A DNA stretch of 64,000 nucleotides from an uncultured Fodinibius sp. (GCA_913056455.1 CAJXMJ010000002.1:434001-498000), one strand, 5' to 3'. Numbered from the stretch's first letter, positions 49,800 to 56,970 are shown. Notes: a model not told the origin generated them from the letters alone. Numbers and translations: made by a program.

Positions 49800-51014
49800 C
49801 TATTTTTCTTCAACTTTTCTCTTCCATTGACTGTATCGATCACGTTGGCTCGTCACCTTTTTAAGATAGTTTCTGGCCTCAGCATATTCCAAATTCTTAC
49901 GCAAGTATGCATAGTTCTCTTCCGGAGACATCGTGTTAATTTTTGAAAACGCCTTCGACAAACTAGTGCTACCCGTGTAAGCCACTGCCACATTACCGGC
50001 ACCCGTATTGTAGGCACAAATAATCAAATACTCGCGGGTTAAATCATCTTCAGCACGATCAAAATAATTGGACTCCATAATATCTATGAAGGTTGTTCCC
50101 ATCTGAATATTATTGTCCGGCTGGAATAAAAATTCTTTGGTAGGAATACCATCTTCATTAAAAATTCTTCGATAGGCATCACGTCCTCCTGTTGTCGGAA
50201 CCAACTGCATCAACCCATACGCATTGGCATGAGAGGCAGCAGTAGGATTAAAGTGAGACTCAACGTGAATTATTGCAAATACAAGAGCCGGATCGATATC
50301 GTACTCTCTTGAGAATTTATATATAAAGTCCTCAACTTTTTTCGCTCTTTTCTGTAAATGATCATCGGAAAGCTGAAAATCGACATATACGACATAACGC
50401 TTTTCACCATCGCCGCCCTGCACCTCTTTTGTCTTTGTACTTTTTTTAGCGACTTCTTTGGCATATTCATCCACGGACTGATTTTCGGGTTTGTTTAGTT
50501 GGTCTGCTAAAACCGGCTCATCAGTAATCTCTTTATTGGGTACATTTTCTGTTTCAAAGCCTTCTCTTGTTCCCTTCAATGTCAAAGCCTCAGAAATCTT
50601 TTGTGGCATTTCTTCCCTCACCTTTGCAGCTTCTTCTTTGCTCTCAGCAATTACCTCAACCTGACCACTTCCTTTTTCAAAATCCGTTGATATCCGCAGG
50701 TTGCCATTATCCTTATATTCAACCCACTGCTTTTTGGAGCGCTCCTTAAAATCACCCCACTTTTCTTGCATTTCTTTTTTAAATGCTTGGTATTCTTTTT
50801 CAAATGCCTCTCTATATTGCTCATACTCCTGCTCAGAACTTGCTACGCCATTTTCAATATTTCCCAAATACTTCTGATATCCCTCTTGGTACTGTTGTTT
50901 ATAATCTTCGAAATCATCCTGTGCCCAAGCAGATGAACTGCCCAAACAACATACTGTAATAAAAAACCCAGTGAGATATCTTCCTAAATTATATAATCCT
51001 TTTTGCCTAAACAT
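49800..51014 (-). CDS. MltC-like lytic transglycosylase (Mltc_N + SLT)
   Basis: 404 residues from ATG 51014, chosen because GGAGAGGA lies 7 nt upstream; a reading 17 codons longer is possible but lacks this. A signal peptide ends SSAWAQ. The mature N-terminus (FEDYKQQYQEGYQKYL ... EYQAFKKEMQEKWGDFKE) plus the beta region to ~225 resemble the MltC N-terminal domain (DUF3393). The SLT domain has catalytic E252 (AIIHVESHFNPTAASHANAY), GLMQLVPTTGG and CAYNTGAGNVA. It cleaves peptidoglycan glycan strands with 1,6-anhydro products. No lipobox is evident, unlike E. coli MltC. It follows, after a terminator, the LpoB/LPP20 lipoprotein series. Confidence 0.88.
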   Translation of the reverse strand: MFRQKGLYNLGRYLTGFFITVCCLGSSSAWAQDDFEDYKQQYQEGYQKYLGNIENGVASSEQEYEQYREAFEKEYQAFKKEMQEKWGDFKERSKKQWVEYKDNGNLRISTDFEKGSGQVEVIAESKEEAAKVREEMPQKISEALTLKGTREGFETENVPNKEITDEPVLADQLNKPENQSVDEYAKEVAKKSTKTKEVQGGDGEKRYVVYVDFQLSDDHLQKRAKKVEDFIYKFSREYDIDPALVFAIIHVESHFNPTAASHANAYGLMQLVPTTGGRDAYRRIFNEDGIPTKEFLFQPDNNIQMGTTFIDIMESNYFDRAEDDLTREYLIICAYNTGAGNVAVAYTGSTSLSKAFSKINTMSPEENYAYLRKNLEYAEARNYLKKVTSQRDRYSQWKRKVEEK

Positions 51015-51083
51015 ATTTTGTCCTCTCCCAAATATTGAAATTACCATCACTAACACGGTTGGCAATATTATTATCTCCCTTTA

Positions 51084-51128
51084 TAAAAAAGAAATATCCC
51101 GACCCCGGAAAATAGGATCGAGATATTT
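51084..51128 (-). terminator. Rho-independent terminator between LPP20 and MltC-like genes
   Basis: On the minus strand a 14-bp stem (AAATATCTCGATCC / GGGGTCGGGATATTT, two G-T wobbles) is followed by CTTTTTTATA. It lies 30 bp after the downstream LPP20 gene and separates it from the transglycosylase gene, which thus probably has its own promoter just upstream of 51014. Confidence 0.88.
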
Positions 51129-51157
51129 TAATACTTAATGGCAATTACGATCCCAAA

Positions 51158-51748
51158 CTATTGTTCAGAAGGCATACTGCCATTTTTCATCTCTTCAATC
51201 GACTTTTTCATTTCTTCAAACCCTTTTGAGGCCTTGAACTTCGTATAAAGCTCTTCATCTTTGGAAAGTGTGTTTTCAAGTGCATCGTTCAAGGCATTTG
51301 CAGCTTCACCAACAGGCAAACGCACCAGCATCAGCACCTCATGCTTGGTATTATTATCACGCTGATAAAACTTACTCCTGTCGACATCTACACCACGTAA
51401 TGTCTGTTGCCCAACTGATTTTGATACATCAGTGAATACTTCGCTGTAATTACTATTTGCCCCTGACGTTGTCTCTTCAGCAAAGTTTTTCTGCATGGCA
51501 CTTACTTCAGACTCAAGCTTAAGAGTAAGAGCCGCTCGTCCGTTCTGCAACGCTTGCTTTCTGGCCATGCTTCTGCGAGAAGATGTTCCCTCTCCGATCG
51601 CATAGATATATTCGCTATCGCTACTGGGTGGATTAGTGTACCAGCTCGGCAAATCACTGCCTGCATTATCTGTGGCCGACTCTGAACTGCTACAACCCAC
51701 AACTAAAAATCCAGCTACTAAAAAAGTGAGTAGTATACGTATTTTCAT
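51158..51748 (-). CDS. LPP20-family lipoprotein (short)
   Basis: 196 residues. Lipobox FLVVGC gives C19. The mature part has the LPP20 pattern: LPSWYTNPPSSDSEYIYAIG, EGTSSRRSMARKQALQNGRA, then a helical tail ending in FEEMKKSIEEMKN. AGGGATC 7 nt before ATG acts as ribosome-binding site. LPP20 proteins recur near LpoB/COG3014-type genes. It lies 147 bp after a second LPP20 gene and ends at a strong terminator. Function unknown, presumably outer-membrane-anchored. Confidence 0.8.
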   Translation of the reverse strand: MKIRILLTFLVAGFLVVGCSSSESATDNAGSDLPSWYTNPPSSDSEYIYAIGEGTSSRRSMARKQALQNGRAALTLKLESEVSAMQKNFAEETTSGANSNYSEVFTDVSKSVGQQTLRGVDVDRSKFYQRDNNTKHEVLMLVRLPVGEAANALNDALENTLSKDEELYTKFKASKGFEEMKKSIEEMKNGSMPSEQ

Positions 51749-51895
51749 AATGATCCCTGTTTATATTTGATGATGATTAAAGTAGTCCATATTGATGAAC
51801 TTATTAAAAAGAATGATTCGATTTTATGGAATATTAGTTTAAAAAATTTTATCAGCAAATCACATTTGTTTGACCAGTAACTCTACTAATTCTAT

Positions 51896-52945
51896 CTATT
51901 GTACAGATAATAATTCGTTATTAATAAAACTCCCGAGCTCTGACGATAATTTTTCCTGAACAGCCTGTACCGCTCTTTGGCGCGCATACTTTTCATTCAT
52001 ACTCCCTTCCCGGCCCTCAGCCATAAAAGTACTAAACCATTGCCCACTCTCCTTGTTTTGTGCTTCAATCTGCAACGCCCATTGAATAAACTCATACTTT
52101 GGACGATTTAGGTCAATCGGCTCCATTACAAGATTAATATTCATCTCAATCACCGGATCGGATGCATTATTATCCACCTCGAAACCTTCGTTTTGCAACT
52201 TTCTGGTAATATCAGATCGGACTTCTCCGGGCACCTCACCATCCTCTACTAACCTTACAGTACAAGCTTTTTTTGCCTCTCTATACTCTTGGGTAATTTG
52301 CGACAAGGCCACATCTCCTCGCGCTCCCTGACCAGATAGAATAGCCCGCTGATTTATTAACATTTCATTTACTCGTGCCGTGGCTAAGGCTTGTTTCAGA
52401 TAGATTAATCGATCTAATTTGCTATTCGTCTGTCCGGCATTTTCACGAAAGGAATTAATCTTGTCATGGTTATCCTCAATTTCTTTGCTATACAACTGAG
52501 CTGTTTCCATACGATCCATTGCAGCAAGAGCGTAGAACGTACCGTCTGCAGCATGGTGCATTTCTTTTATTTCTACATTCCTCATCTGTTGGTCCGAAGT
52601 AACCTCTGATCGGGTAACTAAATTTGTATTCTCCCGTGTTGTCACCCCTTCCTCAGAATCTGTAATTTCTTGAAATTCATTAACGTATGACTCATCAACC
52701 TCGACCTCAGACACAAATATTTGGGCCAAGTTAGATTGTGCCTGAGTGCGGGCCCCCTCTCTCGTAGGAGAAGAACCAACCGCCATTAAAAACTGATTAT
52801 CGCTATAATGATCTGATGGGTTATCTACCCAAGCAGGCAACCCCTGGCTTTGGGCTTCCGCTGTTGCTGAACACCCATAGGTAAATACCAGCATGCTGAG
52901 ACTTGCTAACAAAAACAGTTTATGGCTTATGCTGTCTATTCTCAT
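51896..52945 (-). CDS. LPP20-family lipoprotein (long)
   Basis: 349 residues. Lipobox VFTYGC gives C25. LPAWVDNPSDHYSDNQFLMA, VGSSPTREGARTQAQSNLAQ is the LPP20 motif, matched in the short paralogue downstream. The C-terminal ~150 residues (ACTVRLVEDGEV, FEVDNNASDPVIEMNINLVM, FIQWALQIEAQNKESGQWFS) form a second domain reminiscent of FlgO/LpoB-like or TolB-N folds. 13 bp separate it from the COG3014 gene, so they are cotranscribed. Its function is unknown. Confidence 0.8.
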   Translation of the reverse strand: MRIDSISHKLFLLASLSMLVFTYGCSATAEAQSQGLPAWVDNPSDHYSDNQFLMAVGSSPTREGARTQAQSNLAQIFVSEVEVDESYVNEFQEITDSEEGVTTRENTNLVTRSEVTSDQQMRNVEIKEMHHAADGTFYALAAMDRMETAQLYSKEIEDNHDKINSFRENAGQTNSKLDRLIYLKQALATARVNEMLINQRAILSGQGARGDVALSQITQEYREAKKACTVRLVEDGEVPGEVRSDITRKLQNEGFEVDNNASDPVIEMNINLVMEPIDLNRPKYEFIQWALQIEAQNKESGQWFSTFMAEGREGSMNEKYARQRAVQAVQEKLSSELGSFINNELLSVQ

Positions 52946-52958
52946 ATATAAATTTCAC

Positions 52959-54308
52959 TTAGTTAGAGTAAATTGATGCGATTGGTTCCAACCGTTCCTG
53001 CTCCTCTATATTTACATTACGCGCCTCGGAATACAGCAATTTGCCTGCCGGCGAATAATAATTAAATGTTACATCATGTTCCCCGGCAGGAAGCTTAATT
53101 ACATTAGTATAAACTTTGCCGGGCATTGTTTGCCAACCACGCAAGTCAGCCTGCTCTGTAGCTTCTCGGGCTCTGCCTCCCAGGAAGTTGGCGACATCTC
53201 CCGCGATAGAGCCATATTCATCTTCGATTGCACCAGCAATCCCTTCTTGGGCGGCCGATTTCAAAATTCCTCTAATTGTTGCTCGAGCAATAATAATGGG
53301 TTTTTTAATCTTGAATGTTTCCCGGGCTACTTTATCCATCTCTTCAATAATCTCTAACCGAGTACTCATAGTATCATTAACAACGGCTTCAATAACACCT
53401 ACCCGTGAGGGTCGCATTTTCAGCTTCGGGATAGCAATTTTTATCCCTCTACCATCAAAATTTAGATCAGTATTAATACTATTATCTACCTTTTCAGGGG
53501 CATTCCCACAAAAAGCCATTAACATTGTATTGTATTGCTCGGGATGTCGCACCTTGGTAAAGGTAGAATCAAACCTCAGCTTTGAATCAGGCATTGCCTG
53601 GTGGTTGTTTATGGCCTTTTTCAATTTATCCATTTCGATCCGAGCCCCATCTTCTTCTCCGGCCTTCGCATAAAGGGCACTTGCCAAGTAATGGCTTAGC
53701 GGACTATCGTGAATACTGGAAGTGCCGGCTTCCCACTTTATATCCTTCTCCGTGGTATCAGATTCAGCCATCGCGCTTGCGTATTCACCATATTTCTGCT
53801 CTGCCTCAGAGAGCTTTTGTGCAATACGCCGAGCTTCCACCAACGCACTATCAAACTCATCCATTTTCAGGTATCCCAAACTCTTAAATCCATTCAGATA
53901 GACATCTTCATAAACCTCTCCATTATAATCAAGCTGGGTATCATTACTTATAAATGCACCAATCCCGGTTTTTATACTTTTTGTAAAAAGCTGATCTATA
54001 TATTCTTCCGCATTTGTAAAAGATTTTACACTTTTTTCGTAGTCACCCTTAAAATAATTTATTGTTCCCTTTTCCAGTGCATATAACACACGATCTTTAG
54101 CTTCATATATCTCATTATCTTTTAAGCTATCAGCAATACGAGCAGCCCTTTCATAATTACCGGCCTGAAAAGACATACGCATCTGATTCTGACCGCTCAT
54201 CAGCTTTTGAGAACCACATGCTGAGATAAATCCCACATATATCAATAGGAATAATCCCCCAACTACCTTTCTATTAAGCATGAAGCTGATTCTCATAAGT
54301 TTAACCAT
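52959..54308 (-). CDS. COG3014-like lipoprotein with TPR-type N-terminus
   Basis: 449 residues. Lipobox GFISAC gives C31 in the longest reading; an internal ATG at 54296 has AAAGGA about 10 nt upstream and may be the true start. The N-terminal third (AGNYERAARIADSLKDNEIY, GTINYFKGDYEKSVKSF, AEEYIDQLFTKSIKTG) is helical and TPR-like. The middle (FKIKKPIIIARATIRGILKS) and end (LRGWQTMPGKVYTNVIKLPA, GEHDVTFNYYSPAGKLLYSE) match the COG3014 family pattern. From memory, COG3014 genes in proteobacteria neighbour lpoB. No enzymatic motif. Confidence 0.78.
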   Translation of the reverse strand: MVKLMRISFMLNRKVVGGLFLLIYVGFISACGSQKLMSGQNQMRMSFQAGNYERAARIADSLKDNEIYEAKDRVLYALEKGTINYFKGDYEKSVKSFTNAEEYIDQLFTKSIKTGIGAFISNDTQLDYNGEVYEDVYLNGFKSLGYLKMDEFDSALVEARRIAQKLSEAEQKYGEYASAMAESDTTEKDIKWEAGTSSIHDSPLSHYLASALYAKAGEEDGARIEMDKLKKAINNHQAMPDSKLRFDSTFTKVRHPEQYNTMLMAFCGNAPEKVDNSINTDLNFDGRGIKIAIPKLKMRPSRVGVIEAVVNDTMSTRLEIIEEMDKVARETFKIKKPIIIARATIRGILKSAAQEGIAGAIEDEYGSIAGDVANFLGGRAREATEQADLRGWQTMPGKVYTNVIKLPAGEHDVTFNYYSPAGKLLYSEARNVNIEEQERLEPIASIYSN

Positions 54309-54456
54309 CCTTTGTGTGGAGAAGGCTATTATTGCACCCCACCCTGCTTTGCCAAAATACTAAAGATCTTCTTACTCTCTTTTTTTCGTGCTCTTCAAAC
54401 AGTCCGAAAAACCATTGAATTAAAAACTATAAATACCTTAACGATAAATTACGCAA

Positions 54457-55053
54457 TCACCATGTTGTTTTACTACGCTCAATCATCTTCTTGATTTTTT
54501 TGTTGCCTATCCAAGCCTTTCGGTTCGTTTCAACATTAATCAATTCAAGATTAATGGTATAGAACTTAGCAGCCCGCGTGCCATCCAAATTCTTATCTAC
54601 ATTGGACTCAATGCCTCCAACCAACATATAATCGGCGCCGAGCTCCTGCGCAAGAGCAGCAGCAGTTTCATATGAAGCATGCTGCTGCTGATCATCGCGT
54701 TCGGCCCTTATTTGATTTCTCTGGTCAGGATCTGCTACAATCTCCACCTTTTGGCTATTAACAATCGCCCGCTCTATTTCTTTAATAAATATATCCGTAC
54801 GGATATGTTCAGCAGTATTATTTCTAATATCACCCACAATTAACACCGGTGAATCTACATTTTGCAACCACGCGGCCGAAAGAATATCAGATGTCATATC
54901 TTCTGCCACCATGCGGGCATCAGTGTCATTCCAGTTGCCCGATAGATCCGATTGGGAACCGGGATCTACTCTCTGAACACTCTGTGTAGGACCGCATCCC
55001 CAAAAAAGAAATGCTGCAATTAATGAAGGTAGTATCATTCTTGTAAAGGCCAT
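54457..55053 (-). CDS. lpoB: LpoB-like penicillin-binding protein activator
   Basis: 198 residues. Lipobox FLFWGC gives C20. The mature part follows LpoB/COG3417: DARMVAEDMTSDILSAAWLQ, SPVLIVGDIRNNTAEHIRTD, IERAIVNSQKVEIVADPDQR, ALAQELGADYMLVGGIESNV and KFYTINLELINVETNRKAWI. LpoB of E. coli reaches from the outer membrane to activate PBP1b. No PBP gene is in view. It heads the leftward series; 148 bp separate it from the COG3014 gene. It is divergent from the transglutaminase-like gene across 279 bp carrying a perfect palindrome. Confidence 0.85.
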   Translation of the reverse strand: MAFTRMILPSLIAAFLFWGCGPTQSVQRVDPGSQSDLSGNWNDTDARMVAEDMTSDILSAAWLQNVDSPVLIVGDIRNNTAEHIRTDIFIKEIERAIVNSQKVEIVADPDQRNQIRAERDDQQQHASYETAAALAQELGADYMLVGGIESNVDKNLDGTRAAKFYTINLELINVETNRKAWIGNKKIKKMIERSKTTW

Positions 55054-55124
55054 AGGTCGACTCTCTGAAGTTTGTAGGATTTGTACCCGTTAAAATTTTC
55101 AATATTTGAACATGCTATTTTTCA

Positions 55125-55145
55125 AATAAGATTTCAAATCTTATT
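55125..55145. promoter_or_regulatory. Perfect 21-bp palindrome between lpoB and transglutaminase-like gene
   Basis: AATAAGATTT-C-AAATCTTATT: perfect 10-bp arms about a single C. It sits in the 279-bp gap between the divergent lpoB and transglutaminase-like genes, 72 bp before the lpoB start. It lacks a T-run on either side, so an operator for coordinated control is more likely than a terminator. The binding protein is unknown. Confidence 0.55.
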
Positions 55146-55332
55146 CTTATTTTTCATAAAATTCTACCAAACACTACCGGAAGGAGCCTTACTTTCTTTG
55201 ATAAGAAGGATTAATAACTTAATTATTTAGCAGATTAAATTAATCCAGGAATAACTTAAATATTTGTAACTCTGATTGTTTGAGGTTACTATTTGTCAAA
55301 ATAACTCATCTAAACTTGAGGGATTTAAAGCT

Positions 55333-56970
55333 ATGGTTAAGGGTACATTTAAAAACAACTTCTATTGTGTTTTAACGATCTTGCTTATGATGTTGGGCTT
55401 CTCTTTTAATCCTGCACAAGCCCAAGATTTCGAAGAGTGGAAAGAAAACTATCTCCAGGAATTTCAAGAGTTTCAAAATGAGTATGACAAGGAGTTCTAT
55501 GAGATGCTCCAAAAAGAATGGGAGGACTTTAAGTCTGAGCACAGCCCGGACTTCTATGAAAAACCGAAACCCAAACAAATTCCTGTCGCAAACGAACCCC
55601 AACCTACAGATCCCCAATCCAAAAAAACACAGGATAAAGCCGATCCAAAAACGGAAAACCCAAAGACCAGGGAGGATCAGCAATCTCCAGAAAAACACCA
55701 CCCTCAAAAAGAAAATGCCAAAAACACTCCTGAACGACCAGAGGATAAATCAACAAAGACCAAAAAAGGCCAGAAGATTAATGTTACTCCTAAATCCGTC
55801 AATCCCTCTAAAGGAATTACAACTACCTTCAATCCATCCATTAAAAAGGCCGAGGTTCGCTCAAGGCAGATACAATACTTTGGCATTCCAATTAACTATA
55901 AATATTACACTGCCTACGAAAAGCAATTAGAAAAACCCGTTAACCGTAAAGCCATTGCAGAATTTTGGAAGCATTTAAGTACCAAGGATTATCCGTCCTT
56001 CCTGGAACAAGTTCAGCAAGTAAAAAAGCAACTCTCGTTAAACGACTTTGGATATGCCCAACTACTGCATAATATTGGCACACAGATTTATGGGCAACAA
56101 ACAAATGAGGCTACCCTATTTACATGGTTTATGTTAACACAATCCGGTTTCGGCACCAAGGTAGCCTACAAAAACCACCAAGTACACCTGCTGGTCAAAG
56201 CCACACCACACGTTTTCCAAAAGTCGTTGACCATGAATGGGGCAAAATATTATGACATCCAGTTAGTCGAAGATAACAGAAGCCTTCCTGAAAGGTTTTA
56301 TACGTATAAAGGAAATCATGCTCAAAAGGAGGGGAAGCCTATCAACCTACTTTTTAAAGGACTTCCCACATTACAGCAGGAGCAAGAACAACGAAATCTG
56401 AAATTCACTTTTCGGGACTCCACTTATTCGATCAGTATTCCGGTGGATGTCCAAACCGTTAGCTACTTTAAGAATTATCCTCAAGCTGATTTAGACCTAT
56501 ATTTTAACAGCCAAATAGAAAATAGCGAAACACACTCGGCTTTGGTCCAATCCATAGAACCGCTGCTAAATGACAAATCTACCATCGAGCAGGTAAACCT
56601 GTTACTTCGTTTTACGCAGCGCTCTTTTGAATATCAGACCGACACCGAACAGTTTAATACTGAAAAAAAGATGTTCCCCGTTGAAACGCTTTACTATCCG
56701 GCATCAGATTGTGATGATCGCGCTATTATGCTTGGGTACTTACTGGATCAACTTACCGATCTCCACTATATCGTAGTACGTTATCCGGGGCATTTAACTC
56801 TTGCGGTTCATTTTCCCGACGAGAAACCAACCGGCGAACGCATTAACGATCCTATCACCTATAATGGAAAACGTTATTATGTTTCAGATCCTACATATTT
56901 TGGAGCTGATGCAGGGATGATCATGCCGGATTACCGCAACATACAACCTTCTGAAATATTTGACCTGTAG
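55333..56970 (+). CDS. Secreted transglutaminase-like protein with MltC-N-like head
   Basis: 545 residues from ATG 55333, chosen because GAGGGA lies 9 nt upstream and a signal peptide (ending PAQAQ) follows at once; a TTG 57 nt earlier is rejected. Residues ~31-69 (FEEWKENYLQEFQEFQNEY, KEFYEMLQKEWEDFKSEH) mirror the N-terminus of the MltC-like protein. A Lys/Pro/Gln/Glu linker (70-160) is followed by a papain-like transglutaminase fold near the C-terminus with Cys-His-Asp triad C460 (ASDCDDRAIM), H487 (YPGHLTLAV) and D519 (YVSDPTYFG). It probably acts in the periplasm as a peptidase or cross-linker; the substrate is unknown. Divergent from lpoB. Confidence 0.8.
   Translation: MVKGTFKNNFYCVLTILLMMLGFSFNPAQAQDFEEWKENYLQEFQEFQNEYDKEFYEMLQKEWEDFKSEHSPDFYEKPKPKQIPVANEPQPTDPQSKKTQDKADPKTENPKTREDQQSPEKHHPQKENAKNTPERPEDKSTKTKKGQKINVTPKSVNPSKGITTTFNPSIKKAEVRSRQIQYFGIPINYKYYTAYEKQLEKPVNRKAIAEFWKHLSTKDYPSFLEQVQQVKKQLSLNDFGYAQLLHNIGTQIYGQQTNEATLFTWFMLTQSGFGTKVAYKNHQVHLLVKATPHVFQKSLTMNGAKYYDIQLVEDNRSLPERFYTYKGNHAQKEGKPINLLFKGLPTLQQEQEQRNLKFTFRDSTYSISIPVDVQTVSYFKNYPQADLDLYFNSQIENSETHSALVQSIEPLLNDKSTIEQVNLLLRFTQRSFEYQTDTEQFNTEKKMFPVETLYYPASDCDDRAIMLGYLLDQLTDLHYIVVRYPGHLTLAVHFPDEKPTGERINDPITYNGKRYYVSDPTYFGADAGMIMPDYRNIQPSEIFDL

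Follow-up and report, generated by a model that had tools for sequence, protein, structure and literature searches.

We describe a locus of six envelope genes, A to F, in an uncultured Fodinibius sp., located at positions 49800 to 56970 of a 64,000-nucleotide stretch of DNA (GCA_913056455.1 CAJXMJ010000002.1:434001-498000), hereafter the window. The locus consists of two neighbouring gene sets, A-B-(C) and D-E-F, rather than a six-part system. A, B and C are lipoproteins of the LpoB, putative COG3014 and LPP20 types; D is a short LPP20 lipoprotein, E an MltC-like lytic transglycosylase and F a secreted LapG-like protein of transglutaminase fold. The trio D-E-F, whose two enzymes share an aromatic N-terminal helix, was absent from the first-pass annotation of this DNA; it is new here and the most interesting part of the locus. 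We propose, with a probability of roughly 0.48, that D, E and F act as a periplasmic wall-remodelling trio, in which the shared helix would target E and F to one site, D being their likeliest partner. The observations behind this proposal are gene content, co-inheritance, linkage, the shared helix, predicted folds and conserved catalytic residues.

All six open reading frames (ORFs) that the first-pass annotation had placed here are present, and its family labels of LpoB for A, LPP20 for C and D, and MltC-like for E are borne out by Pfam matches. The minus strand is read in the order A-B-C-D-E, while F is divergent on the plus strand. D (51158-51748, minus strand) matches LPP20 PF02169 at 6.4e-8, with 33.4 bits for a curated cut-off of 25.9. 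E (49800-51014, minus strand) and F (55333-56970, plus strand) had listed starts at 51065 and 55276, respectively, both of them upstream TTG codons; better methionines are found at 51014 and 55333, the ORF of E being open to 51065. Judged by eye, D has a lipobox-type N-terminus (VGC), and E and F carry ordinary signal peptides ending in AWAQ and AQAQ, with no cysteine for lipidation. Neither F nor B is assigned to any Pfam family.

Relatives were compared in a set of 59 genomes and in a wider sample of 296 genomes drawn from the phylum. Among the 59, D and F occur together in 18 genomes and are both missing from 39, with D alone in 2 and F alone in none; E and F are both present in 15, both missing from 40, and found singly in 1 (E) and 3 (F). 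In the wider sample, the long form of F, which has the N-terminal helix, is present in 17 of the 296 genomes. D accompanies it in 17/17, versus 28/279 of the others, and E in 13/17 versus 1/279. As Fisher p-values across genomes ignore phylogeny, we set them aside in favour of independent pairs, drawn from a 52-genome RpoB tree (single-gene FastTree). Where the members of a pair differ in F, E goes with it in an average of 6.4 of 7 pairs and D in 6.0 of 7, neither ever in the opposite direction (median sign-test p 0.03); LpoB does so in only about 3.7 of 7 (p 0.125). Co-inheritance does not depend on the three genes being neighbours: three relatives hold the trio complete, though at two or three separate places. 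The earlier suggestion that the transglutaminase-like protein belongs with the lytic transglycosylase is strengthened by this co-inheritance of E and F, and by their common N-terminal helix.

This helix begins straight after the signal peptide in both enzymes, with aromatic residues recurring every 11 positions (F-x2-W/Y-x7). It is encoded at 50748-50921 in E (minus strand) and at 55423-55536 in F (plus strand), and appears as a single helix, residues 27-61, in the F model. At lag 11, the aromatic residues of E and F in the window are more strongly autocorrelated than those of shuffled sequences (p < 0.004). Profiles built from E modules alone were run against 2,821 ORFs, among which overlapping loci repeat some proteins: 23 of the 27 non-E matches are F proteins, including all of the best nine. 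Direct profile-profile comparison of the E and F modules gave P 1.3e-4. The two helices are likely, though not certainly, homologous. With a module taken from F only, the best non-F match in the 296 genomes is an M23 peptidase bearing the module at its N-terminus. This metallopeptidase (L130:9047-9880) belongs to a genome that has only the short form of F; its own lag-11 aromatic autocorrelation is not significantly above shuffles. Two further weak matches in the same sample were taken as chance, since the ORFs concerned look reverse-transcriptase-type and membrane-type. A search of plasmids with the module alone returned nothing but the Bacteroides protein described below, or chance matches.

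Physical linkage points in the same direction. In nine genomes outside the genus, F is an immediate or close neighbour of D; in three others, E is. One of these three, from a distant family of the phylum (L195:5450-10325), also places another LPP20 gene, a BamB-like propeller and an M48/SH3 protein in the neighbourhood. Clusters of another make-up recur elsewhere in the phylum (L204, L205, L210, L214): here the neighbours of a D-type LPP20 are an NTF2-like Cds6_C protein, an LPP20-like 'GEAIG/GEGI' protein and one with a PEGA domain.

Bacteroides finegoldii has an operon-like row in which an LpoB/FlgT_C-like protein is followed by DUF6175, a long LPP20 and D, and then, after one unnamed protein, by long-form F with its helix, so that D stands two genes from F. 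Two Pseudoalteromonas replicons carry a helix-bearing E followed directly by D, and a third has E and D one gene apart, within 1 kb. The E-D and F-D partnerships therefore extend past this genus. Pseudoalteromonas also contains apparently undescribed rows (L275, L277, L278) of LPP20, CsgG/HfaB or ETEC_3214-domain proteins together with a module-bearing MltC-like enzyme. Some records filed as plasmids look chromosomal (L274, L276), namely a 101-kb Bacteroides sequence with dprA and a 4.9-Mb Aeromonas one.

Of the two enzymes, E is the more readily classified. Its matches to Pfam SLT (6.1e-24) and MltC_N (1.1e-11) are accompanied by the conserved motif ESxxNPxAxSxANAxGLMQ, catalytic glutamate included. 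The SLT catalytic domain covers residues 250-362 of the 421-residue ORF (49980-50318, minus strand). Lytic transglycosylases of this family cut glycan strands.

For F, the predicted structure (mean predicted local distance difference test, pLDDT, 82.3) begins with the N-terminal helix, continues through a disordered linker (95-171) and ends in two domains, a middle one and a C-terminal one (385-545). The last of these, the catalytic domain (56485-56970, plus strand), is closest to LapG (4u65_E; Z 11.5, root-mean-square deviation 3.2 over 135 residues; Foldseek E 3.4e-4), ahead of transglutaminases (about Z 8-9) and of the pseudomurein endoisopeptidase PeiP (Z 8.5). In an alignment of 35 homologues, Cys460 (56710-56712) and His487 (56791-56793) are invariant; Asp519 (56887-56889) is invariant in the long form and replaced by glutamate in part of the short relatives. 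By alignment, this conserved Cys-His-Asp set appears to match the LapG-type triad. A sequence search of the PDB with the F core placed LapG on top, with no significance (E 0.84), aligning ..SDCDDRAI.. of F to ..GDCEDYAI..; the same search with the whole F alignment gave nothing useful. From the fold matches, the conserved residues and the PDB alignment, we conclude that the label 'transglutaminase-like' of the first-pass annotation was right in fold, and that a LapG-like peptidase would be a better functional guess for F than a cross-linking enzyme. LapG is a substrate-specific periplasmic protease that acts on adhesins.

The remaining genes, all on the minus strand, encode predicted lipoproteins with lipobox-type N-termini, again judged by eye. 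A (54457-55053; FLFWGC), predicted to be of the outer-membrane type, is clearly matched by Pfam LpoB PF13036 (8.7e-35, 120.2 bits for a cut-off of 22.3) and falls below the NCBI LpoB equivalog TIGR02722 (98.6 versus 110.55 bits). B (52959-54308; SAC) is a candidate COG3014-type TPR lipoprotein, labelled from its predicted fold and the context of its homologues: the model (pLDDT 86.5) shows a TPR domain, then a beta domain that includes a long helical hairpin. C (51896-52945; YGC) is a long LPP20 protein (PF02169, 2.4e-9, 37.9 bits for the same curated cut-off of 25.9).

Outside the genus, the block parts into LpoB and COG3014, with or without the long LPP20, and the trio D/E/F. A and B have an identical occurrence, in the same 26 of 59 genomes, where they are adjacent or nearly so and often found with C, which accompanies them in several other genera; in nine of the 26, D, E and F are all missing. 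A-B-(C) is a widespread LpoB/COG3014/LPP20 group of outer-membrane-type lipoproteins. Because a B homologue of Aeromonas (22.5% identity, 6e-10) stands in a row with an LpoB gene (HIT, COG3014-type, YcfL-like, LpoB; gene names are our reading of the translations), the A-B association appears to cross phyla.

Within the genus, the order F / A-B-C-D-E is complete and syntenic in 7/12 Fodinibius/Aliifodinibius genomes, so that the families co-occur beyond this genome, in support of the first-pass annotation, which was also right in reading the genes as envelope genes. The named relatives of F place the genome in Fodinibius/Aliifodinibius or close kin. Protein identity across the conserved block ranges from 45 to 95% in genomes of the genus. 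Genes for a sodium:solute symporter and a glutamate-dehydrogenase-like protein border the block at one end and that for a branching enzyme at the other; the block is absent from 4 of the 12 genomes. This conservation of order exceeds chance. One genome (G003; L273 / L048) has a decayed block, in which D is intact, C and F are reduced to short scraps, and E and the local A-B are gone. Another (L034:5704-8563) has B duplicated in tandem, the copies being 64% and 47% identical to B, and holds further LpoB/COG3014 pairs, partly broken (L090, L091).

The gap between D and E contains a hairpin resembling an intrinsic terminator (51092-51128, minus strand; 15-pair stem and T run), and 7/7 intact loci (the others being L032-L037) are predicted to have a strong hairpin there, with differing sequences. 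Because such a hairpin with a T run sits in the D-E gap, A-B-C-D and E are probably transcribed apart, as separate units. Together with the separability of LpoB/COG3014 from D/E/F in other genera, this hairpin speaks against the single six-part module put forward in the first-pass annotation.

That annotation had also coupled the locus to wall synthesis through LpoB and a penicillin-binding protein. In E. coli, LpoB docks on the UB2H domain of PBP1B. No UB2H domain was found on a penicillin-binding protein in the 59 genomes, which gave weak matches only, in a search directed at the domain and not at the PBP1 genes themselves. The E. coli control was positive; in the Fodinibius genome of the window, the match is sub-threshold and in an Mfd-type protein. 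UB2H matches in 53 genomes were considered as candidate penicillin-binding proteins and rejected: the two that were read, from this genome and from one relative, are Mfd, and most of the others, with ORFs of about 1,120 and 690 amino acids, have lengths that suggest Mfd and UvrB. The coupling is weakened by this result, by the score of A under its equivalog cut-off and by the terminator before E.

In the wall-remodelling proposal, E would cut glycan strands, as its homology implies, and F, as a cysteine peptidase of transglutaminase fold, would cut either a bond of the peptidoglycan stem peptides or cross-links, or a wall-associated protein. As neither enzyme is lipid-anchored, the amphipathic helix behind the signal peptide may be what brings them to one place. 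The lipoprotein D is the likeliest docking partner of both helices, because it is the one gene that certain lineages pair with E and others with F. Docking to D, the substrate of F and joint action in wall remodelling are the parts that we infer.

Several observations weigh against this proposal. The co-inheritance statistics stand on few independent pairs (7); D is kept without E and F in G003, many genomes of the phylum have D but no F, and E was not found in 3-4 genomes holding D and F, some of which are drafts. The profile-profile probability for the E and F modules is only 27%, and an M23 carrier of the module was found once in 296 genomes. Since the helix is short and biased in composition, convergence of a short amphipathic helix is possible. 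Finally, the best fold match of F, LapG, is a protein-cutting enzyme, which lends no support to a peptidoglycan substrate.

This last point would fit another scheme, in which D, E and F serve the assembly of a larger outer-membrane machine akin to the flagellar FlgO/FlgP/FlgT ring and built of LPP20 and CsgG/LpoB/FlgT-type proteins: E would open the wall locally, and F would trim or release a protein part as LapG does. Some LPP20 proteins, FlgP among them, are able to form rings in the outer membrane. The clusters that hold D homologues contain CsgG/HfaB and other LPP20 proteins in Pseudoalteromonas; in Bacteroides the companions are LpoB/FlgT_C-like, DUF6175 and LPP20 proteins, and elsewhere PEGA-domain and further LPP20-like ones. 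The substrate specificity of LapG is also in keeping with this scheme. However, the clusters seen have no recurring gene for an outer-membrane barrel, a secretion ATPase or a filament, nor does such a partner occur among the genes adjacent to the set in the window, and we regard a role in machine assembly as unlikely, if the least so of the alternatives. Somewhat less probable again is that the neighbours are functionally separate, their co-occurrence reflecting shared lineage and an envelope life style, and the helix having arisen repeatedly as a generic coiled coil. The low complexity of the helix, its weak detection between families, the parting of A/B from D/E/F in other genera and the terminator between D and E all agree with such independence. 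Yet E-F and D-F remain favoured when the pairs are phylogenetically independent, the best cross-matches of the E module are almost exclusively F proteins, and the linkage of D with E is met again in another phylum, as is that of D with F in another class. The original model of the first-pass annotation, one six-protein complex coupling LpoB activation of PBP1 to cleavage by E and F, can draw on the seven genomes that hold all six genes side by side, on the clear LpoB-family membership of A, and on a TPR lipoprotein of H. pylori, encoded beside an LpoB homologue in related species, that co-precipitated MltD and AmiA (PMC11394524). Against it stand the missing UB2H-bearing penicillin-binding protein, the inheritance of A/B apart from D/E/F outside the genus and the probable split of transcription before E, which together make it very improbable.

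Beyond the wall-remodelling trio itself, one may speculate that the helix is an exchangeable periplasmic docking tag, carried by wall enzymes whose catalytic classes are unrelated (a lytic transglycosylase, an M23 endopeptidase and a LapG-like cysteine peptidase), which a short LPP20 lipoprotein would gather at the outer membrane, both in Bacteroidota and in Pseudomonadota; we consider this generalisation doubtful. If true, wall enzymes could be targeted with neither a lipid anchor nor a SPOR/LysM domain, and there would be a function for a short LPP20 lipoprotein that occurs throughout the phylum, in Bacteroides too. To our knowledge, no function has been assigned to LPP20, COG3014 and long-form transglutaminase-like proteins, although they are common in the envelope; the trio and its helix turn them into a testable claim of one lipoprotein, one helix and three enzyme classes. 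An incomplete literature search found no paper describing a D-E-F set with a shared helix and none on COG3014 by name; on LPP20 with lytic transglycosylases it returned H. pylori work only, none of it on this set.

Among known systems, E resembles E. coli MltC, a family 1 SLT enzyme with MltC_N, in its two domains and catalytic motif. It differs by lacking the lipid anchor (no lipobox cysteine), by its extra N-terminal repeat helix and by its score with the NCBI MltC equivalog, 195.9 bits for a cut-off of 375. F shares with LapG and HvyA (BTLCP) the fold of its last ~160 residues and the conserved Cys-His-Asp, all three being exported; HvyA is a capsule regulator in Caulobacter (PMC4241560). 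Unlike LapG, F possesses a middle domain and the N-terminal helix, and its match to the LapG NCBIfam model failed (13 bits, far below 320). No LapA/LapD-type gene adjoins F, the search for them having been confined to its neighbours. With PeiP, which cuts a wall cross-link, F has the transglutaminase fold in common, but the substrate of PeiP is an archaeal wall, and the match is weaker than that of LapG and close to background.

As for A and B, the same two families meet in the Gammaproteobacteria, where the Aeromonas row combines LpoB with COG3014 and YcfL; its order and companions differ, and no LPP20, transglycosylase or LapG-like gene was seen there. A further parallel is the H. pylori and C. 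jejuni system, in which we know of no module-bearing enzymes. B is like HP0018 and the Cj0089-Cj0091 genes in being a TPR lipoprotein encoded beside an LpoB homologue, a likeness of type only. HP0018 of H. pylori co-immunoprecipitated the lytic transglycosylase MltD and the amidase AmiA, and an HP0018-type gene adjoins an LpoB homologue in related species, as in C. jejuni Cj0089-Cj0091 (PMC11394524). By analogy, HP0018 would be helpful as an earlier case of a TPR lipoprotein in contact with wall hydrolases.

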